Positions 12,219-22,783 of a stretch of 64,000 bases of DNA are shown here, piece after piece (position 1 is the first letter of the stretch; every line of letters starts with the position of its first letter). Under the pieces are notes generated by a model that saw only the letters and a list, made by a program, of their open reading frames with translations, had not been told where the DNA came from and did no database searches. The stretch comes from Pseudonocardia sp. HH130630-07 (GTDB lineage Bacteria; Actinomycetota; Actinomycetes; Mycobacteriales; Pseudonocardiaceae): the NCBI RefSeq assembly GCF_001698125.1, contig NZ_CP013854.1, forward strand, positions 682,001 through 746,000, read 5' to 3'. A program made the position numbers and the translations under genes.

Positions 12219-15200
12219 GTGACGACGACAGCGGACCCGGCAGCGGCGGACACGGCGGACCCGGCGGGCACGACCACGGCGCGTACCGCCTGCACCTACT
12301 GCGGGGTCGGGTGCGGGATCCTGCTGCAGATCGGCACCGGACCCGGCGGCGCGCGGCAGGTGACCCGGGCCGCCGGGGACCCGGACCATCCCGCGAACGC
12401 CGGACGGCTGTGCACCAAGGGCGCCACCAGCGCCGAGCTGTTCCGCGCCCCCGGGCGGCTGGACACCGCGCTGGTCCGGCCCGGACGTGGTGCGGAGCCG
12501 GTGCGGACGCCGGTCGACGAGGCGATCACGGCCACGGCCCGCGGGCTGCGCGCGGTGCTGGACGAGCACGGCCCGGACGCGATCGCCCTCTACGTGTCCG
12601 GGCAGATGAGCATCGAGGCGCAGTACCTCGCCACCAAGCTGGCCAAGGGGTTCCTGGGCGGCAACCAGATCGAGTCGAACTCACGCCTGTGCATGGCCGG
12701 AGCGGCCACCGGCTACACGCTGTCCCTCGGCGCGGACGGCCCGCCCGGTTCCTACGCCGACCTCGACCGGGCGGACGTGCTGTTCGTGATCGGCTCGAAC
12801 ATGGCCGACTGCCATCCGGTGCTGTTCCTGCGGATGATGGAGCGGGTCGCGGCCGGGGCGACGCTGATCGTGGTCGATCCCCGGCGGACGGCGACGGCCG
12901 ACAAGGCCGACCTGTTCCTGCAGATCGCGCCCGGCACCGACCTCGCGCTGCTGAACGGGCTGCTGCACCTGCTGCACGCCGGCGGGTACGTGGACACGGC
13001 GTTCGTGGAGGAGTTCACCGAGGGCTGGGCGGACATGCCGGCCTTCCTGGCCGACTACCCGCCCGACGCCGTCGCCGCCGTCACCGGGATCGCCGAGGCC
13101 GACCTGCGCCGGGCCGCCGAGCTGATCGGCACCGCGGAGAACTGGACGAGCTGCTGGACGATGGGGCTCAACCAGAGCACCCACGGGACCTGGAACACCA
13201 ACGCCCTGGTCAACCTGCACCTGGCGACGGGCGCGATCTGCCGCCCCGGCAGCGGGCCGTTCTCCCTCACCGGCCAGCCGAACGCGATGGGCGGGCGCGA
13301 GGTCGGCTACATGGGTCCCGGCCTGCCCGGGCAGCGGTCGGTGCGCTCCGCCGCCGACCGGGCGTTCGTCGAGCAGCAGTGGGGCGTCCCGGCCGGCACG
13401 CTCCGCGAGGAGACCGGGCGCGGTGCGGTCGACCTGTTCTCCCGGATGGCCGACGGCGAGGTGAAGGCCTGCTGGATCATCTGCACCAACCCGGTGGCGT
13501 CGGTCCCGAACCGCCGGACGGTCCTCGACGGGCTGGCCGCCGCCGAGCTCGTCGTGACCCAGGACGTCGTCGCCGACACCGAGACCAACGCCCACGCCGA
13601 CATCGTGCTCCCGGCGACGATGTGGGCCGAGGCCGACGGCGTCATGGTCAACTCCGAGCGCGACCTGACCCTGGTGCCCGGGGTCGCCGACCCGCCGGGC
13701 GATGCGCTGCCGGACTGGGAGCTGATCGCCAGGATCGCCTGCGAGATGGGTTTCGGGCACGCCTTCGGCTACACCGGCGCGGCCGAGGTGTTCGACGAGA
13801 TCCGCCGCTTCCACAACCCGAGGACCGGCTGGGACCTGCGCGGGGTCGACCACGCCCGGCTCCGCGACTCCCCCGTGCAGTGGCCGGCCCCGCCCGGCGC
13901 CGAGGACCGCAACGCCGTCCGCTACCGCAACGACGGCCGCAGCCAGGCGCTCGGTGTCCGGCCGGACGGCACGGTCCCGCGGCTGTGGTTCCCCCGGCCC
14001 GGCGGCCGGGCGCTGTTCCTGCCCCGGCCGCACCTGCCCGCCGCGGAACTGCCCGACGACGACCACCCGTTCCTGCTGAACACCGGCCGCGTCCAGCACC
14101 AGTGGCACACCATGACCAAGACCGGCACCGTCGCCGCGCTGAACCGGCTGGACCCCGGGCCGTTCGTGGAGATCCATCCCGATGACGCCGCCCGGCTCGC
14201 GGTCGGCGCCGGCGACGACCTGGAGCTGGTGTCCCGGCGCGGGCGTGCGGTGCTCCCGGCCCGGGTCTCCGACCGGGTCCGCCCGGGCAGCCTGTTCGCC
14301 CCGTTCCACTGGAACGACCGCTACGGCGCGGACCTGGCGGTGAACGCGGTGACCAACGACGCCGTCGATCCGCTGTCCTTCCAGCCCGAGTTCAAGGTGT
14401 GCGCGGTGGCGGTCACCGCGGTGCCGCGGGCACCGGAGCCGGACGCCGGACCGTTCGGCGTGGCCGGCGAGCCCGACCCGGAGCTGACCGGCACGCAGCG
14501 CCGTTACCTCGCAGGCTTCCTGCGCGGGCTGGACGCGGCGCCGCCGGACGGGACGGTCCCGGTGCTGCCCCCGGGCGCCCCGTTCGCGCCGGAGCACGCG
14601 ACCTGGGTGGACGGGGTGCTGGCCGGGATGTTCTCCCGGGCGTCCCCGGCCGCCGTGGCGACTGCCGCCGCCGGGCCGGACGGGGGCTCCCGCCCGGTCG
14701 TCGTGCTGTGGGCGTCGCAGACCGGGACCGCCGAGGACGTCGCGACCGGGGCCCTGGTGCGCCGTCTCGCCGGGATCGGGGTCCGGCCGGCCGTGCTGGG
14801 GATGGACCGCGCCGACCCGGCGACGCTGCCCGCCGGCGCGGACCTGCTCGTCGTCACCAGCACGTTCGGCGACGGCGACGCCCCGGACAACGGCGCGGCG
14901 TTCTGGACGGCGCTGACCGGCGCCGGCCCCGGCGCGCTCGCCGGGCGGCGCTTCGCCGTGCTCGCGCTCGGTGATCCCGGCTACGCCGAGTTCTGCGGGC
15001 ACGGCCGCCGCCTCGACGCCCGGCTCGCCGAGCTGGGGGCCGAGCGGCTGCTCGACCGGGTGGACTGCGGGCCCGACGTCGCCGGGCCGGCCACGGAGTG
15101 GCTGGAGGCGGTCGCCGCGGTGCTCACCACCGACCCGCCGGACTCCGCGGGGCCGGGTGCCGTCCCGGACGCCGGACCGGGCACCGGCGCCGCGGACCCG

Positions 15201-16325
15201 GGAGCAGCGGCGACGCCGGCTGGTACGCCCCGGGACGCGCCGCTCGTCGGCAACCGGCTGCTCAGCGGGCCCGGCGCGGCCAAGGAGGTCCGCGAGTTCG
15301 TCCTCGACATGGACGGGACCGGGCTGCGCTACGAGACCGGTGACGCGCTGGAGGTGACCGCGCGCAACGCCGACGCCCTGGTCGAGGAGTGGCTGTCGGC
15401 CACCGGGCTGGACGGGCGCGCCGAGGTCGAGATCGCCGGGTCCGCCGTGCCGCTCGGGCGCGCGCTGCGCGAGCGGCTGGACATCACGCGGGCGGCCCCG
15501 GCGCTGCTGCACTTCGTCGCCGAGCGGTCCGGCGACGCGCGGCTGGGCGCCCTGCTGCGGCCGGGCAACCGCGGTGAGCTGGACCGGTGGTCCTGGGGCC
15601 GCCAGGCCGTCGACGTCGTCGGCGGGTCCGGGGTGCGGGCCACCGCGCAGGAGTGGGTGGACCTGCTCGGGCCGCTGCGCCCGCGGCGGTACTCGATCTC
15701 GTCGAGCCCGCTGGAGCGGCCCGCCACCGCGTCGCTGACCGTGTCCGTGGTCCGCTTCACCGGCCCGCGCGGGACGCCGCGGGCCGGGGTGTGCTCGGCC
15801 GGTCTCGCCGACGCCCCGGCCGGGAGCCCGGTGCCGGTCGCCGTCCGGTCCGCCCCGCACTTCCGCCCGCCCGCCGCGGGCGTCCCGATGATCATGATCG
15901 GGCCGGGGACCGGGATCGCGCCGTTCCTCGGCTTCCTGCAGGAGCGCCGGGCCCGCGGCGACCGGGCTCCGAGCTGGCTGTTCTTCGGTGAGCGGCACCG
16001 GGCGACCGGCTTCTACCACCGCGACGAGCTGGACGGGTTCCGCCGCGACGGCGTCCTCACCGACCTGGACCTGGCGTTCTCCCGGGACCAGCGGGCCACG
16101 GTGTACGTCCAGGACCGGATGCTCGGTCACGGCGCGAAGCTGTGGTCCTGGCTGCGCGACGGCGCGCACCTCTACGTGTGCGGCGACGCGGCGCGGATGG
16201 CCCGCGACGTCGACCGGGCGCTGCGCACCGTCGTCGCCCGGCACGGCGGGTTCACCGCGGAGGAGGCGGACGCGCAGGTGGCCGCGCTGGCCGCCGACCG
16301 ACGCTACGTCCGCGACGTCTACTGA
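12219..16325 (+). CDS. Assimilatory nitrate reductase fused to a CysJ-like flavin reductase
   Basis: A 1368-aa single-chain enzyme. Residues 20-750 are a Mo-bis-MGD oxidoreductase with a 4Fe-4S motif at C25, C28, C32 and C65 (CTYCGVGCG ... GRLCTKG) and the Mo-ligand region NSRLCMAGAATGY, so Cys is the ligand. Residues about 825-965 are a flavodoxin domain (VVLWASQTGTAEDVA; TSTFGDGDAPDN). The rest is a FAD/NADPH ferredoxin-reductase unit (RRYSISSSP; GPGTGIAPFLGF; LYVCGDAARMARDVD). Nitrate can thus be reduced to nitrite directly with NAD(P)H in the cytoplasm. GTG at 12219 has GGAGG upstream. No nitrite reductase or nitrate transporter is nearby. The 3' end overlaps the convergent LysR gene by 7 bp. 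Confidence 0.93.
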   Translation: MTTTADPAAADTADPAGTTTARTACTYCGVGCGILLQIGTGPGGARQVTRAAGDPDHPANAGRLCTKGATSAELFRAPGRLDTALVRPGRGAEPVRTPVDEAITATARGLRAVLDEHGPDAIALYVSGQMSIEAQYLATKLAKGFLGGNQIESNSRLCMAGAATGYTLSLGADGPPGSYADLDRADVLFVIGSNMADCHPVLFLRMMERVAAGATLIVVDPRRTATADKADLFLQIAPGTDLALLNGLLHLLHAGGYVDTAFVEEFTEGWADMPAFLADYPPDAVAAVTGIAEADLRRAAELIGTAENWTSCWTMGLNQSTHGTWNTNALVNLHLATGAICRPGSGPFSLTGQPNAMGGREVGYMGPGLPGQRSVRSAADRAFVEQQWGVPAGTLREETGRGAVDLFSRMADGEVKACWIICTNPVASVPNRRTVLDGLAAAELVVTQDVVADTETNAHADIVLPATMWAEADGVMVNSERDLTLVPGVADPPGDALPDWELIARIACEMGFGHAFGYTGAAEVFDEIRRFHNPRTGWDLRGVDHARLRDSPVQWPAPPGAEDRNAVRYRNDGRSQALGVRPDGTVPRLWFPRPGGRALFLPRPHLPAAELPDDDHPFLLNTGRVQHQWHTMTKTGTVAALNRLDPGPFVEIHPDDAARLAVGAGDDLELVSRRGRAVLPARVSDRVRPGSLFAPFHWNDRYGADLAVNAVTNDAVDPLSFQPEFKVCAVAVTAVPRAPEPDAGPFGVAGEPDPELTGTQRRYLAGFLRGLDAAPPDGTVPVLPPGAPFAPEHATWVDGVLAGMFSRASPAAVATAAAGPDGGSRPVVVLWASQTGTAEDVATGALVRRLAGIGVRPAVLGMDRADPATLPAGADLLVVTSTFGDGDAPDNGAAFWTALTGAGPGALAGRRFAVLALGDPGYAEFCGHGRRLDARLAELGAERLLDRVDCGPDVAGPATEWLEAVAAVLTTDPPDSAGPGAVPDAGPGTGAADPGAAATPAGTPRDAPLVGNRLLSGPGAAKEVREFVLDMDGTGLRYETGDALEVTARNADALVEEWLSATGLDGRAEVEIAGSAVPLGRALRERLDITRAAPALLHFVAERSGDARLGALLRPGNRGELDRWSWGRQAVDVVGGSGVRATAQEWVDLLGPLRPRRYSISSSPLERPATASLTVSVVRFTGPRGTPRAGVCSAGLADAPAGSPVPVAVRSAPHFRPPAAGVPMIMIGPGTGIAPFLGFLQERRARGDRAPSWLFFGERHRATGFYHRDELDGFRRDGVLTDLDLAFSRDQRATVYVQDRMLGHGAKLWSWLRDGAHLYVCGDAARMARDVDRALRTVVARHGGFTAEEADAQVAALAADRRYVRDVY

Positions 16326-17272
16326 TCCCGCGGGCCGCCGGGGCCGCCGTCGCCCGGGGAGCCGGCACGTTCCAGCTCCGCGGCGACGTCGGCGGCCGCG
16401 ACGGCGTCCCGGAAGGCGAGGGCGACGTGCGAGGCCGGGCCGCGGTCACCGAGCCGGAGCCCGACGGTCGGCCGCGGCCCCTCCCCCACGACCGGCAGCG
16501 CCCGCATCCCCGGCGGCACCCCGAACGCCCGCAGCCAGGTGTGCGCGATGACCGCCGACCACCGGCCGGTGGCGAGGTGCGCGTACAGCGCGGCGACGGT
16601 GTCGGTCTCCACCACGATCCGCGGACGGCCACCGGCGGCGCGGACGGCGTCGTCGAGGATCTGCCGGTTCTGCATGCCCTGGACCAGCGCACACAGCTCC
16701 ACCTCCCCGACGTCGGCCCAGCCCACCGTCTCCCGGTCGGCCGCCGTCGGACCGGGGGTCACCAGCAGGTAGCGCTCCCGGTAGAGCGGCAGCGTGGTGT
16801 CGCCGGGCTCGTCCGGCTCCAGGTAGGTCAGCCCGGCGTCGAGCTCGAACTCGGCGAGCCTGCGGTCGATCTCCCGGGAGGGCAGGACCTCGATCCGGGA
16901 ACCGGCCCGCGGATGCGCCCGGATCCAGGCGGTGGTCAGCGCCGGGGTCGCCGGGACCGCGGTCGGGATCGCCCCGATCCGGACCATCGCGGACAGGCCG
17001 TCGCGCATCCGGTCGAGGTCGGTGTGCAGCGCGTCCCGCTCGGCGAGGATGCGGTGCGCCCAGCCGACCACCCGTTGCCCCTCCGGGGTGAATCCCTCGA
17101 ACCGGCGGCCGCGCAGCACGATCGTGACGTCCAGCTGCCGTTCGAGGGTCTGCAGCGCCGTCGACAACGTCGACTGGCTGGCGTGACAGGCCGCGGCGGC
17201 CCGGCCGAAGTGCTGTTCCCTGGCCAGGGCCACCAGGTACTCGAGCTGTCGCAGCTGCACGTCACCGGCCAC
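16319..17272 (-). CDS. LysR-family transcriptional regulator
   Basis: A 317-aa LTTR. The N-terminal winged HTH is at about 6-65 (LRQLEYLVALAREQHFGRAA; SQSTLSTALQTLERQLDV) and the periplasmic-binding-like effector domain at about 95-290. GTG at 17272 has TAAGCT (17284-17279) six bases upstream, a leaderless arrangement; GTG at 17260 is an alternative. It lies between the nitrate reductase and the divergent formate dehydrogenase operon, so it probably controls one or both and itself. A perfect 26-bp inverted repeat sits directly behind its -10 box. Confidence 0.9.
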   Translation of the reverse strand: MAGDVQLRQLEYLVALAREQHFGRAAAACHASQSTLSTALQTLERQLDVTIVLRGRRFEGFTPEGQRVVGWAHRILAERDALHTDLDRMRDGLSAMVRIGAIPTAVPATPALTTAWIRAHPRAGSRIEVLPSREIDRRLAEFELDAGLTYLEPDEPGDTTLPLYRERYLLVTPGPTAADRETVGWADVGEVELCALVQGMQNRQILDDAVRAAGGRPRIVVETDTVAALYAHLATGRWSAVIAHTWLRAFGVPPGMRALPVVGEGPRPTVGLRLGDRGPASHVALAFRDAVAAADVAAELERAGSPGDGGPGGPRDQ

Positions 17273-17284
17273 GGGACGAGCTTA

Positions 17285-17310
17285 GGCGCCGATCGGGGAT
17301 GATCGGCGCC
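17285..17310. promoter_or_regulatory. Perfect 10-bp inverted repeat, candidate LysR operator
   Basis: GGCGCCGATC, six bases (GGGGAT), then GATCGGCGCC. It abuts the predicted -10 of the LysR gene, where binding would block that promoter. A second symmetric element, ACTCCGGAGT at 17321-17330 with flanking CGATC/GATCG, lies between it and the formate dehydrogenase promoter (TAGGTT at 17366-17371). Confidence 0.6.
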
Positions 17311-17406
17311 GTCGATCACGACTCCGGAGTTGCCGATCGCCCGAGCGGGTCCGGGCCACGGCGCCTAGGTTGTGTGAGAAGGCGATCGCACCGGATCGGA
17401 GTGGAC

Positions 17407-20400
17407 GTGGACGTCGTGGGGTGGCTGGGCTCCTGGCCCGTCTTCCAGCAGCTGACCGGTCGCGACCGGCTCGGCCGGGGCGCCGCGGCGCAGTCCGGGA
17501 AGTCCGAGGGGCTGCGCGCCCGGACCGCGACCGCCGACCGCTGGGCCGGCTCGGTCTGCCCGTACTGCGCGGTGGGCTGCGGGCAGCGGGTCTACGTGAA
17601 GGACGAGAAGGTCGTCCAGATCGAGGGCGACCCGGACTCGCCGATCTCCCGCGGCCGGCTGTGCCCGAAGGGCTCGGCCAGCACCCAGCTCGTCACCGGC
17701 CCGCAGCGGCTGGAGAAGGTCCGCTACCGCGCGCCCTACGCCACCGAGTGGACCGACCTGGACCTGTCCACCGCGATGGGGATGATCGCCGACCGGGTCG
17801 TGGACGCCCGCCGCCGTGGCTGGCAGGACGCCGACGACCAGGGCCGCCCGCTGAACCGGACGATGGGCATCGCCGCACTCGGCGGCGCCGCGCTGGACAA
17901 CGAGGAGAACTACCTCCTCAAGAAGGTCTTCACCTCGTGGGGCGCGGTGCAGATCGAGAACCAGGCGCGTATTTGACACTCCGCCACGGTTCCCGGTCTG
18001 GGAACCTCGTTCGGTCGGGGCGGCGCGACCAACCACCAGCAGAGCCTGGCGGACGCCGACTGCATCATCATCATGGGCTCGAACATGGCCGAGGCGCACC
18101 CGGTCGGGTTCCAGTGGGTGATGGAGGCCAAGGCCCGGGGCACCCGGGTGATCCACATCGACCCGCGGTTCACCCGGACCAGCGCGGTCGCGGACACCTA
18201 CGTGCGGTTGCGCGCGGGCAGTGACATCGCGTTCCTCGGCGGGGTCGTGCGCCACGTCCTGGAGAACGACCTCGCGTTCCGGGAGTACGTGGCGGCCTAC
18301 ACCAACGCGTCGTTCGTGCTGGGCGAGGACTACGTCGACGCCGAGGACAACGACGGCGTCTTCTCCGGCTACGACCCGGAGTCCGCGACCTACGACACGA
18401 GCAGCTGGCGGTTCGAGACCGGTGCCGACGGCGCGCCCGTGAGCGACCCGACGCTGGAGCACCCGCGCAGCGTGTTCCAGGTGCTGCGCCGGCACTTCGC
18501 CCGCTACACCCCGGAGACGGTGCAGGAGGTCTGCGGCGTGTCCCCGGAGCAGTTCCGGGACGTCTGCGAGGCCTGGACGTCGAACTCCGGGCGGGACCGG
18601 ACGACGTCGCTGGTCTACAGCGTCGGCTGGACCCAGCACTCGGTCGGTGCGCAGTACATCCGCTGCGGGGCGATCCTGCAGCTGCTGCTGGGCAACGTCG
18701 GACGCCCCGGCGGCGGGATCTTCGCGCTGCGCGGGCACGCCTCCATCCAGGGCTCGACCGACATCCCGACCCTGTTCAACCTGCTGCCCGGCTACCTGCC
18801 GATGCCCGCCGTCGGCCAGGCCGACACCGCCACCTACATCGAGGCGGTGCGCACGAAGGGCCACAAGGGCTTCGGCTGGAACAGCGACGCCTACATGGTG
18901 TCGATGCTCAAGGAGTGGTTCGGTGACGCCGCGACGCCGGAGAACGACTTCGGGTACGGCTGGCTGCCGCGCATCGACGGCGACCACGGCACCTACCGCA
19001 CCGTCATGGACATGATCGACGGCCGGGTGTTCGGGTACTTCGTGCTCGGACAGAACCCGGCGGTCGGCTCCGCGCACGGCAAGATGCAGCGGCTCGGGAT
19101 GGCCAACCTGGAGTGGATGGTCGTCCGCGACCTCGTCGACATCGAGACGGCGAGCTTCTGGAAGGACTCGCCGGAGATCGAGACCGGCGAGATCGTGCCC
19201 GAGCAGTGCCGCACCGAGGTGTTCCTGCTGCCCGCGGCCTCGCACGTGGAGAAGGACGGCACGTTCACCCAGACCCAGCGGATGGTGCAGTGGCGGACCA
19301 AGGCCGTCGAGCCCTCCGGTGACCGGCGCTCGGACCTGTGGTTCGCCTACCACCTCGGCCGGCTGGTGCGCGAGCGCCTGGCGGACTCGACCGACCCACG
19401 CGACCTGCCGGTGCAGAAGCTGGCCTGGGACTACGAGCTCGAGGGCCACGACGAGTGGGCCGAGCCGTCGCCGGACGACGTCCTGCGCCGGATCAACGGC
19501 TACGACCTGTCCACCGGTGAGCTGCTCGACGGGTTCGCCCAGCTCAAGGCGGACGGCAGTACGTCCTCCGGCTGCTGGATCTACAGCGGGGTGTACGCCG
19601 GCGGGGTCAACCGGGCCGCGCGGCGCGAACGCCCGGCGGACCCGGACGTCGCCCCCGAGTGGGGCTGGACCTGGCCGATGAACCGCCGGGTCATCTACAA
19701 CCGGGCCTCGGCCGACCCGCAGGGCCGGCCGTGGAGCGAGCGGAAGAAGCTGCTCTGGTGGGACGCGGACGCGGGCCGCTGGACCGGCGACGACGTCCCG
19801 GACTTCGTCGCGACCACCCCGCCCGGGCACGATCCGGGCCCGGACGCCGTCGGCCCGGCCGCACTCGCCGGTGACGACGCCTTCGTGATGCAGCCCGACG
19901 GCAAGGCGTGGCTGTTCGCGCCGACCGGTGTCGCCGACGGCCCGCTGCCGACGCACTACGAGCCGCACGAGTCCCCGATCCGCAACCAGCTCTACCGCCA
20001 GCAGTCCAACCCGACGCGCAAGGTGTTCGGGCGCAAGGACAACCCGTCGAACCCGGCGGCCGGGGAGAAGGGCTCGGAGGTCTTCCCGTTCGTCCTGACG
20101 ACGTCGCGACTGACCGAGCACCACACCGCCGGGGCGATGAGCCGCCAGCTGCCGTTCCTCGCCGAGCTGCAGCCGGAGCTGTTCGTCGAGGTGTCCCCGG
20201 AGCTGGCCCGGCAGCGGGACCTGGAGCACATGGGCACCGCACACGTGGTGACCAGCCGGTCCGCGGTGCAGGCGCGGGTGATGGTCACCGACCGGATGGC
20301 GCCACTGCGGGTCGGCGGCACGACGGTGCACCAGGTCTGGATGCCCTACCACTGGGGCTCCACCGGCCTGGTCCGCGGCGACGTGGTCAACGACCTGTTC

Positions 20401-20667
20401 GGCGTGGTCCAGGACCCGAACGTCTTCATCCAGGAGACCAAGGTCATCACCTGCGACGTCCGGCCCGGCCCGCGCCCGCGCGGGCCGGAGCTGACCGCCC
20501 TGCTGGAGGAGGTCCGCTCGCTGGCCGGCATCACCCCCGCCACCAACACCGAACTGCTGCACGACGACGGCGTCCCGCACGTCGACCCGACCGCCCGCCC
20601 CGACGACCGTCCGCCCGGTGTCCCGGGCATCGGCGTCCCGGCGGAGAACCCGCTGGAGACCCCGTGA
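17407..20667 (+). CDS. fdhA: Formate dehydrogenase catalytic subunit, selenoprotein (Sec at TGA 17974)
   Basis: A Mo/W-bis-MGD formate dehydrogenase alpha subunit (about 1086 aa with read-through). The 4Fe-4S motif is CPYCAVGCG (C51, C54, C58) ... GRLCPKG. The frame is interrupted only by TGA at 17974-17976 after ENQARI, exactly where FdhF/FdnG enzymes carry catalytic selenocysteine followed by His. The same frame continues as HSATVPGLGTSFGRGGATN, so this is residue Sec190, not a frameshift. A SECIS hairpin follows. GTG at 17407 is chosen because GGAG at 17398-17401 is correctly spaced; GTG 17401 is in frame. No Tat signal is seen, suggesting a cytoplasmic active site. It overlaps fdhB by GTGA. 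Confidence 0.93.
17977..18017 (+). promoter_or_regulatory. Bacterial SECIS element
   Basis: Just after the in-frame TGA, GGTTCCC (17988-17994) and GGGAACC (18000-18006) form a perfect 7-bp stem closed by loop GGTCT (17995-17999). The loop starts 19 nt after the TGA, as I recall it does in E. coli fdhF. The bases that SelB reads there (U17, G23, U24, counted from the U of UGA) are all present at 17990, 17996 and 17997. This directs selenocysteine insertion by SelB. Confidence 0.9.
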
Positions 20668-21698
20668 CCGAGCGGAACAGCTTCTACGGCCCGCTGGACG
20701 ACGTGACCGGTGACGCCGGGTACGACCCGGAGCACCCGCCGCGGATGGGCTTCTTCACCGACACCTCGGTGTGCATCGGCTGCAAGGCCTGCGAGGTCGC
20801 CTGCAAGCAGTGGAACTCGGTGCCCGACGACGGGTTCGACCTGCTCGGGATGTCCTTCGACAACACCGGGTCGCTCGGCGCCGACACCTGGCGCCACGTC
20901 GCGTTCATCGAGCAGCCGCGCCGGTCCGGCTGCCAGGACACCGGCCTGGACGCCGCGCCGGTCGGTGCCACCGCGACCGGTGTCATGCAGGCCTCGGTCG
21001 CCGAGGGCCTCGCCGCCTCCCCGGAGCGCGGTGGTGAGCTGGGATCGATGCCGCGCCGGGACGGGGCGGAACCGCTGGGGATGCCGTCGTTCTCCAGACC
21101 CGGCGACGGGACCGGCGCCGAGGTCCGCACCGACTTCCGCTGGCTGATGGCCTCGGACGTGTGCAAGCACTGCACGCACGCCGGCTGCCTGGACGTCTGC
21201 CCGACCGGCGCGTTGTTCCGCACCGAGTTCGGCACCGTCGTCGTGCAGCAGGACATCTGCAACGGCTGCGGCTACTGCGTCTCGGGCTGCCCGTACGGCG
21301 TGATCGACCGCCGGGTCGGCGACGGCCGGGCCCAGAAGTGCACGCTGTGCTACGACCGTCTGCACGACGGCCAGGAGCCGGCCTGCGCGAAGGCCTGCCC
21401 CACCGACTCCATCCAGTTCGGCGTGCTCGACGAGCTGCGCGAGCGGGCCGACGCCCGGCTGGAGCAGCTGCACGGCCTCGGCGTCGGTGAGGCCCGGCTC
21501 TACGGCCGCGACCCGGACGACGGCGTCGGCGGCGACGGCGCGTTCTTCCTGCTCCTCGACGAACCCGAGGTCTACGGTCTGCCGCCGGACCCGGTCGTCC
21601 CGACCCGCGACGCCGGTGCCATGTGGCGCCAGGCCGGGCTGGCCGCCGGTGCGTTCCTGCTCGCCGGGATCGCCTCGTTCCTGGGAAGGTCCCGATGA
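20664..21698 (+). CDS. fdhB: Formate dehydrogenase iron-sulfur (beta) subunit
   Basis: A 344-aa electron-transfer subunit with four 4Fe-4S clusters: CIGCKACEVACKQW near the N-terminus, CKHCTHAGCLDVCPTGA, CNGCGYCVSGCPYG, and CTLCYDRL ... ACAKACPT. A roughly 70-residue Gly/Pro-rich insert (about 85-150) separates the first cluster from the rest. The C-terminus ends in one hydrophobic helix (AGLAAGAFLLAGIASFLG), like the anchor of FdnH/HybA-type subunits. GTG at 20664 overlaps the fdhA stop and the next gene overlaps its stop, so the three are translationally coupled. Confidence 0.93.
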   Translation: MTERNSFYGPLDDVTGDAGYDPEHPPRMGFFTDTSVCIGCKACEVACKQWNSVPDDGFDLLGMSFDNTGSLGADTWRHVAFIEQPRRSGCQDTGLDAAPVGATATGVMQASVAEGLAASPERGGELGSMPRRDGAEPLGMPSFSRPGDGTGAEVRTDFRWLMASDVCKHCTHAGCLDVCPTGALFRTEFGTVVVQQDICNGCGYCVSGCPYGVIDRRVGDGRAQKCTLCYDRLHDGQEPACAKACPTDSIQFGVLDELRERADARLEQLHGLGVGEARLYGRDPDDGVGGDGAFFLLLDEPEVYGLPPDPVVPTRDAGAMWRQAGLAAGAFLLAGIASFLGRSR

Positions 21699-22783
21699 GC
21701 CACGACGCCGCCCCCGAGTCGGGGCTGCCCGCCACGACCGGCCCGGGGTCCGCCCGCGACGCCGAGATGTTCCAGGGCGGCCGGCGCCGGCGCCGGCGGG
21801 GCGGGGGTGGCGGCCGCGGCGAGCAGTCGATGGTCCCCGAGGCCGAGTTCTCCTCGTACTACGGCCGCGCCGTGCTCAAGCCGCCGGTGTGGGAGCACAA
21901 GATCGCCTACTACCTGTTCTGCGGCGGGCTCGCGGCCGGGACCGCGGTGGTGGGCGCGGGCGCCGACCTGACCGGGCGGCCCGCGCTGCGCCGCGCGAGC
22001 CGGGCCGGTGCGCTCGGCGGGCTGGTGGCGAGCACCTACTTCCTGGTCTCGGACCTGGGCCGCCCGGAGCGGTTCCACCACATGCTGCGGGTCGCCAAGC
22101 CGACGTCCCCGATGAGCGTCGGCACCTGGATCCTCGCCGTGTTCGGCCCGGCCGCCGGTCTGGCCGGCGCCGCCGAGGTGATCCCGGCGCTCCCGCCGCG
22201 GCTGCGCCGCTCCTGGCCGGTCCGGCTGATGGGCGCGCTCGCCCGGCCCGCGGGGCTCGGCGCCGCCGTGACCGCTCCCGCCCTGTGCACCTACACGGCG
22301 GTGCTGTTCTCCCACACCGCCGTCCCCGGCTGGAACGAGGTGCGCGACGAGCTGCCGTTCGTCTTCGCCGGTTCGGCGGCGGCCAGCGGCGGCGGTTTCG
22401 GCATGCTGACGACGCCGGTCCGTGAGGCCGGACCGGCCCGGGCCTTCGCGGTGCTCGGGGCCGCCGGTGAGCTGGTCGCGGGCAAGATCATGGAACGCCG
22501 GATGGGCATCATCCGCGAGGCCTACGAGCACGGACACGCCGGGAAGCTCCGCAAGGGCTCGGAGGCCGCCACACTCGCCGGGCTGGCGGGAACGCTGCTC
22601 CTCGGGCGGCGGTCCCGGGCCGGGGCCGCGGTGTCCGGGCTGGCGCTGCTGGCCGGGAGCCTGCTGCAGCGGCTCAGTGTGTTCGAGGCGGGCGTGGAGA
22701 CGACGAAGGACCCGCGCTACGTCGTCGTCCCGCAGCGGGAGCGGCTCGAGGAGCGGCGCCGGGCCGAGGCCGCGGGGAGCTGA
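21695..22783 (+). CDS. NrfD/PsrC-like membrane subunit of formate dehydrogenase
   Basis: A 362-aa integral membrane protein. After a disordered, Arg/Gly-rich N-terminus (about 1-50) come about eight hydrophobic segments typical of the NrfD/polysulfide-reductase family (WEHKIAYYLFCGGLAAGTAV; TSPMSVGTWILAVFGP). Such subunits pass electrons between the FeS subunit and the quinone pool without heme. The formate dehydrogenase is therefore probably menaquinone-linked on the cytoplasmic face. ATG at 21695 overlaps the fdhB stop (ATGA). fdhD and Moco or Sec genes are absent here. Confidence 0.88.
   Translation: MSHDAAPESGLPATTGPGSARDAEMFQGGRRRRRRGGGGGRGEQSMVPEAEFSSYYGRAVLKPPVWEHKIAYYLFCGGLAAGTAVVGAGADLTGRPALRRASRAGALGGLVASTYFLVSDLGRPERFHHMLRVAKPTSPMSVGTWILAVFGPAAGLAGAAEVIPALPPRLRRSWPVRLMGALARPAGLGAAVTAPALCTYTAVLFSHTAVPGWNEVRDELPFVFAGSAAASGGGFGMLTTPVREAGPARAFAVLGAAGELVAGKIMERRMGIIREAYEHGHAGKLRKGSEAATLAGLAGTLLLGRRSRAGAAVSGLALLAGSLLQRLSVFEAGVETTKDPRYVVVPQRERLEERRRAEAAGS

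Follow-up and report, generated by a model that had tools for sequence, protein, structure and literature searches.

The window analysed here, a stretch of 64,000 nucleotides from Pseudonocardia sp. HH130630-07, raises the question of whether an in-frame TGA inside an apparent formate dehydrogenase gene ends the protein or is read as selenocysteine (Sec), and of which features of the message might serve such a reading.

An in-frame TGA in a formate dehydrogenase gene

The frame opening at ATG 17299 contains only two stops, TGA 17974 and the terminator TGA 20665, and thus a single internal stop up to 20667, after which 896 sense codons were counted; the initial annotation had described a catalytic frame broken by this TGA alone and running on for about 900 codons. 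Around the TGA the frame reads ...IENQARI-U-HSATVPGLGTSFGRGG.... The start is uncertain, with ATG 17299 and GTG 17374, 17401, 17407 and 17416 as in-frame candidates; from GTG 17401 the product has 1,088 amino acids and a computed mass of 119.5 kDa (Sec taken as Cys), near the 118 kDa or so claimed earlier. The product scored 1801.3 bits against NCBIfam NF041513 (formate_DH_Act, an entry of kind 'exception'; cut-off 1400) and 945.2 bits against TIGR01553 (cut-off 814.2), the latter in one stretch from residue 47 to residue 1018 that spans the TGA. When aligned with E. coli formate dehydrogenase N (1kqf, chain A), the TGA fell on the X-His column in which X is Sec and the reading was NQARI-U-H, which places the TGA, as claimed, at the exact catalytic Sec/Cys site followed by His. 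The genes concerned are as follows.

16319..17272, minus strand: LysR-type regulator gene, divergent from fdhA (PF03466 80 bits, PF00126 56.5 bits)
17401..20667, plus strand: fdhA, formate dehydrogenase alpha subunit, with Sec as codon 192 counted from GTG 17401 (NF041513, TIGR01553, frame and stops)
17974..17976, plus strand: UGA read as selenocysteine (TGA in 80/80 closest relatives, best 80 of at least 586; 1kqf alignment)
20664..21698, plus strand: fdhB, iron-sulfur beta subunit, its start overlapping the fdhA terminator (PF13247 86 bits)
21695..22783, plus strand: fdhC, NrfD-type membrane subunit (PF03916 NrfD 52.5 bits, cut-off 25.8)

FdhB carries 4Fe-4S domains and matched TIGR01582 (FDH-beta) with 176 bits, under the cut-off of 334.7. 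A link between the LysR gene and fdh is suggested by its position. By eye, no twin-arginine motif was visible in the alpha N-terminus read from GTG 17401 onward, the start being uncertain; the simplest reading is therefore a cytoplasmic active site with electrons passing to a membrane subunit, and the cytoplasmic side is the more likely location. Upstream, the window also holds at 12219-16325 (plus strand) a fusion of a molybdopterin oxidoreductase, of nitrate reductase or FdhF type, with a flavoprotein reductase resembling CysJ (TIGR01591 481 bits and TIGR01931 433 bits, both below cut-off).

Together, the family models, the 1kqf alignment, the RNA hairpin described below and the sel genes of the genome support the earlier interpretation of a Sec-containing formate dehydrogenase. 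We conclude from sequence comparison, with a probability of roughly 0.96, that fdhABC (17401-22783) encodes a Mo- or W-dependent formate dehydrogenase with selenocysteine in its alpha subunit; annotations in which FdhA stops at residue 191 are corrected accordingly. That an ordinary Cys gene (TGC or TGT) merely seems to carry TGA through an error of sequencing or assembly, or has recently acquired it by nonsense mutation, is highly improbable: Cys homologues do exist in the phylum, farther off (TGC in G099, G422 and G301, TGT in G091, and TGC in Nonomuraea), but TGA stands at the site in all 80 of the closest relatives (best 80 of at least 586), a hairpin with covarying pairs follows it, and the sel gene set of the genome is complete. 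We give equally little credence to a genuine terminator with two separate proteins, for although a plain list of open reading frames yields 17299-17976 and 18073-20667, the second of these would lack both the Fe4S4 domain and the catalytic residue, the family models and the 1kqf alignment show a protein family conserved across the TGA, and the RNA around it is itself constrained.

A collection of named genomes supplied the relatives, of which the best 80 among at least 586 were fetched; the six best matches to fdhA were all from Pseudonocardia, the nearest from P. endophytica at 85%. A search of the genus found TGA in the full-length over-cut-off matches, among the matches listed. Two loci, L140 and L141, were excluded from the counts; their site residue was neither Sec nor Cys and their identity about 30%. 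A second Sec codon was considered for one family whose rows showed two TGAs and was rejected for the genes inspected, in which the second stop, if the alignment included it, lay at about query position 1026, near the C-terminus (L119, L120, L130); in L121 it lies at query position 251. Also rejected was a Sec nitrate reductase in genome G001, where a NasC-like match begins with the TGA, ahead of its conserved part.

The warning that automatic annotation would split the gene in two is fair for older annotation and no longer general. The part of a 2020 paper available to us (PMC7176365) lists FdhA1 and FdhA2 without protein id, added by hand, whereas NF041513 now exists and four public plasmid records (two actinobacterial and two others) keep a TGA-containing homologue, its internal TGA checked, as one CDS. 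On one plasmid, pYA7-1a of Arthrobacter sp. YA7-1 (L104, predicted conjugative), genes for fdh, an iron-sulfur subunit, nrfD, selD, selA and selB are adjacent, and a Tsukamurella plasmid (L103) carries a similar cluster; the pYA7-1a fdh-sel cluster is possibly a mobile Sec module.

The SECIS hairpin, the Sec machinery and a second Sec gene

Folding of the region downstream of the TGA, which had been suggested as a check, bore out the hairpin, with its distance of 11 nt from the TGA, its perfect 7-bp stem and its GGTCT loop.

17988..18006, plus strand: SECIS apical stem-loop, 7 bp, GGUCU loop (fold, pair conservation and covariation)
18014..18017, plus strand: possible 3' strand of a lower SECIS helix, GUCG with UGAC (17974-17977), tentative (U42 in 60 of 81 near genes, best 80 of at least 586)

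The stem-loop GGUUCCC-GGUCU-GGGAACC has a predicted energy of -12.6 kcal/mol, which was unexceptional against shuffles (z of -0.88, -1.23 and +0.39 for 38, 47 and 57 nt). Stronger evidence came from the near set of 81 genes, that is, fdhA with the best 80 of at least 586 relatives. Positions 18 and 30, both silent, form a pair in 81/81 genes of this near set (best 80 of at least 586), with five pair types, where 10,000 shuffles gave a mean of 59 and a maximum of 68, a significance overstated because the sequences are related; the U17, G23 and U24 said to stand at canonical spacing are at those places and invariant in 81/81. The E. coli-type SECIS has a bulged U17. Here U17 may be bulged or paired: the base opposite it is A in 36 and G in 45 of the 81 (best 80 of at least 586), with either of which it is able to pair, and in the predicted fold it is paired. 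Codon choice in the same genes (best 80 of at least 586) is equally restricted: the loop codon is GGT in 79/81, GGT being 9.9% of Gly codons elsewhere, its neighbours are CCC in 81/81 (25% of Pro) and CTG in 81/81 (60% of Leu), and the most deviant synonymous codon columns among 1,009 cluster around the TGA. According to the accessible part of PMC13188914, bacterial SECIS elements have a loop of 3-9 nt, an upper stem of 4-16 bp, a G within the first two positions of the loop, a UGA-to-loop distance of 16-37 nt and an energy of -7.5 kcal/mol or lower; the fdhA hairpin, with its 5-nt GGUCU loop, 7 bp, 18 nt and -12.6 kcal/mol, fits these rules as given there.

With the comparison widened to 75 distinct sequences, the apical stem and the possible lower helix were paired in 87.7% of cells; shuffles gave 81.4% and sliding gave 31-54%. 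The lower helix stays tentative because two of its four predicted pairs fail, 3-42 in 37 and 2-43 in 16 of the 75 sequences. An Rfam scan and ARAGORN gave no match over the 64-kb window, and the comparative evidence for the SECIS was therefore assembled by hand. The resulting covariance model (R1), run over the whole genome, recovered the fdhA site with 74.7 bits, by construction, since the site is in the training set.

The expectation that selA, selB, selC and selD should exist elsewhere in the genome, with the absence of selB or selC named as what would refute the Sec reading, was borne out. The genome (6.68 Mb in three contigs) carries tRNA-Sec at G000:C1:3852052-3852143 (74.4 bits, cut-off 47; reported by ARAGORN as tRNA-SeC with anticodon tca), selA (373 bits, cut-off 267.9), selD (381 bits, cut-off 125) and, as a whole ORF narrowly over its cut-off, selB (251.3 bits against 242.25). 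The selA, selB and selD matches contain no stops, and with tRNA-Sec they span 3.844-3.852 Mb of contig 1, 3.1 Mb from fdhA at 0.699 Mb. Between selA and selD lies an IS5-like transposase ORF (L101:7508-8338, plus strand; NF033581 88.8 bits, below the cut-off of 140). The gene adjoining selD (L101:9670-10770, plus strand) matches L-cysteine desulfhydrase Cds1 (NF052478 634 bits, cut-off 600), and a role in selenide supply is conceivable.

The initial annotation was right about fdhA, and besides fdhA the genome contains a second selenoprotein gene. The SECIS covariance model found one further whole-model site (22.1 bits, E 0.035) and six weaker partial matches with E of 0.9 or more.

G000:C1:5485701-5487713 (= L163:5702-7714), minus strand: second Sec formate dehydrogenase, short alpha subunit, 671 codons (SECIS model, TIGR01591)

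This gene reads ...NNVDSCNRT-U-HAPSVVGLTAVFGAGG... and reached 598 bits against TIGR01591, short of the 666 required; a NuoE/NuoF-like subunit adjoins it and FdhD is nearby. It is an NAD-type formate dehydrogenase.

Sec use had been called patchy in actinobacteria; the fdhA-type gene is over cut-off in 68 of 396 sampled genomes of the phylum but in 45 of 62 of the genus. In the genus tallies, read by hand from gene-match listings, the second Sec gene is present in 31 genomes (with at least one TGA in each of the 33 copies listed) and one or the other in 53. Among these 53, selA was over cut-off in 49, and the other four (G022, G048, G050, G055) are drafts split into 380 to 1,060 contigs. It was also found in four of the nine genomes with neither gene (G019, G035, G047, G053), which perhaps have other selenoproteins; a SECIS search gave no match at E 0.5 in G019 and G047 and one weak match each in G035 and G053, while in G001 it gave a second-family site (E 2.8e-6) and one weak match. 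A class sample showed a second-family match in 36 of 394 genomes, and among the loci fetched TGA stood at the site only in our own gene and L194.

By analogy with established SelB-dependent decoding, SelA and SelD would make Sec-tRNA-Sec, which SelB would carry to the ribosome while binding the GGUCU hairpin, and reading of the UGA as Sec would compete with release factor 2. The Sec would then bind the metal and take part in formate oxidation, with electrons passing by way of FdhB to FdhC and from there, presumably, into the quinone pool.

The codon before the Sec TGA

The bacterial SECIS is usually described as a hairpin downstream of the UGA only. Yet the most deviant synonymous column of the family lies on the other side of it.

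17971..17973, plus strand: codon -1, Ile ATT (rank 1 of 1,009 columns)

This codon deviates by 4.17 bits, the SECIS loop codon by 3.02 (best 80 of at least 586 relatives). Of the 81 genes of the near set (best 80 of at least 586), 74 have ATT, 6 have ATA and 1 has ATC, so that 80 end in T or A, while ATC makes up 97.9% of the 2,589 Ile codons elsewhere in them. Thirty-four distant Sec genes of the phylum gave A or T as the last base in 30, the exceptions being ATC in L110, L121 and L145 and TTG in L136, and those with less than 15% A/T-ending codons gave it in 16/20. The two actinobacterial plasmid Sec genes agree (2/2), and Thermomicrobium has ATA. Over the first family as a whole, 112 of 117 actinobacterial Sec genes (near set, best 80 of at least 586) have A or T as the last base of codon -1, and none of five Cys homologues does, four of which read GTG, GTG, ATC and ATC. 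In the second family it is ACT in 31/31, ACT being 0.3% of the 946 Thr codons of those genes and A/T-ending codons 4-5% overall; 30 of these 31 Sec genes came from the genus search, for which all but 3 of the 33 copies were fetched. Its Cys homologues above 60% identity have ACC in 20 and ACG in 3 of 23, with A/T in 0/23; five below 60% identity were excluded (L218-L222: CTC or CTG, also not A/T). These counts come from related sequences; even so, the codon before the Sec TGA, which ends in T or A in both families, appears from sequence to be under very strong constraint.

Sense codons before other TG triplets behave differently: of 2,434 that precede TGC, TGT or TGG, 125 have A or T as their last base. 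At true stops, TGA terminates 76 of the 80 first-family genes with a terminator in the locus, and the base before it is A in 37, C in 24, G in 13 and T in 2 (best 80 of at least 586); since A before UGA is common there, only T is distinctive. A preference for T at codon -2 was dropped as a rule, CGT being found in 47/81 of the first family (best 80 of at least 586) and T in only 1/31 of the second. Nor is the codon -1 rule universal. All six proteobacterial Sec genes compared (two from Burkholderia) have GTC, the trend being absent, and for SelD, where 20 TGA-bearing and 20 TGA-free genes of the phylum were fetched from the rows listed, the Sec genes have GGC 11, GGT 6, GGG 2 and GGA 1 (A/T in 7/20) and the Cys genes A/T in 2/20; among those with less than 15% A/T-ending codons the figures are 6/12 for Sec and 0/15 for Cys, so that a Sec-SelD trend is at most weak.

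Given these counts, we propose, at about even odds, that the Sec signal of Actinomycetota formate dehydrogenases extends to the 5' side of the UGA, with codon -1 having to end in U (or A) whatever the amino acid, and that this acts in Sec decoding. The reading we prefer from the sequences is that in these actinobacteria this base, in the ribosomal P site, makes termination at the UGA less likely or helps SelB to decode it, a proposal we would rate a little below an even bet. It is consistent with the same trend in codons for Ile (ATT, ATA), Val (GTT) and Thr (ACT), in two families with different flanks, and with its absence from the Cys homologues fetched; the GTC of the six proteobacterial Sec genes and the slight difference between Sec-SelD and Cys-SelD count against it. 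Termination in mammalian cells changes with the P-site codon, even between synonymous codons, but AUU gave the lowest readthrough among Ile codons, as far as the accessible part of that study goes (PMC9841425). The ATT before the fdhA UGA would most likely be kept because its third base affects UGA decoding.

A second explanation, which we consider unlikely though worth weighing, places the cause in the mRNA rather than the ribosome: C at codon -1 could pair with G41 in a misfold that buries the UGA. For 66 genes (15 mycobacterial loci left out), T in place of C raised the predicted chance of an unpaired UGA by a mean of 0.33, while 792 control Ile codons gained 0.025 and only 2.9% of controls reached the Sec median. 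Folding of the first family in three contexts likewise favoured T over C. For the second family the values with T and C in three contexts were 0.35/0.34, 0.41/0.36 and 0.51/0.37, with little difference in two of the three; moreover, in L055 and L030 an A at codon -1 buries the UGA more than C does, and the lower helix is weakly supported. Misfolding as the sole cause, supported in the first family and hardly in the second, was rejected.

Shared ancestry with no present function seems improbable. The second-family Sec genes are nearly one genus, so that T there could have been inherited once, but A/T-ending codons are so few in these genes, and the first-family site moves among ATT, ATA and GTT and rarely to the preferred codon. 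An internal promoter (TTGACA) was rejected on paper, because ATA sites lack the hexamer and no -10-like sequence lies at the right distance, and reinitiation at an ATG or TTG overlapping the UGA was judged less likely, since the actinobacterial Sec genes fetched that have Val in front of the Sec TGA all use GTT and none GTG.

The literature searched, with most subscription papers outside its reach, yielded nothing on the 5' context of bacterial Sec codons; the Engelberg-Kulka group reportedly worked on UGA context in E. coli. Should the codon -1 result hold, it would offer a simple single-base test of events 5' of a bacterial Sec codon and a cheap marker for finding actinobacterial Sec formate dehydrogenase genes. 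The constraint 5' of the UGA is the less expected part of this analysis and worth a bench test.

Comparison with known formate dehydrogenases

E. coli formate dehydrogenase N (FdnG, 1kqf) has a Tat signal on its alpha subunit and a cytochrome b gamma subunit. The alpha subunit described here aligns with it over nearly its full length, with Sec in the same column and TIGR01553 over cut-off, but has an NrfD-type gamma partner and no visible Tat motif.

Closer counterparts occur in Actinomycetospora chiangmaiensis DSM 45062, of the same family Pseudonocardiaceae, for which the available part of PMC7176365 reports three Sec formate dehydrogenases and selenium-dependent formate removal, with expression of the FDH proteins and of SelA, SelB and SelD and a search for SECIS elements. 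The alpha subunits of FDH1 and FDH2 have 1,078 or 1,089 amino acids with Sec, and FDH1 likewise comes with beta and gamma subunits; its gene cluster is listed as including selA and selB, whereas here the sel genes lie 3.1 Mb from fdhA. FDH3, a cytoplasmic NAD-dependent Sec enzyme in the same portion of that paper, resembles our second Sec gene in its short alpha subunit and NuoE/NuoF-like subunit, the match being one of length and subunit make-up.

Since the Sec formate dehydrogenases of Actinomycetospora are known, fdhA belongs to a known kind, and comparison with NF041513 (formate_DH_Act), whose cut-off it exceeds, found no difference. The fdhA gene is confirmed as one more member of a known selenoprotein family, ordinary in kind and now documented with its machinery, partners and relatives.
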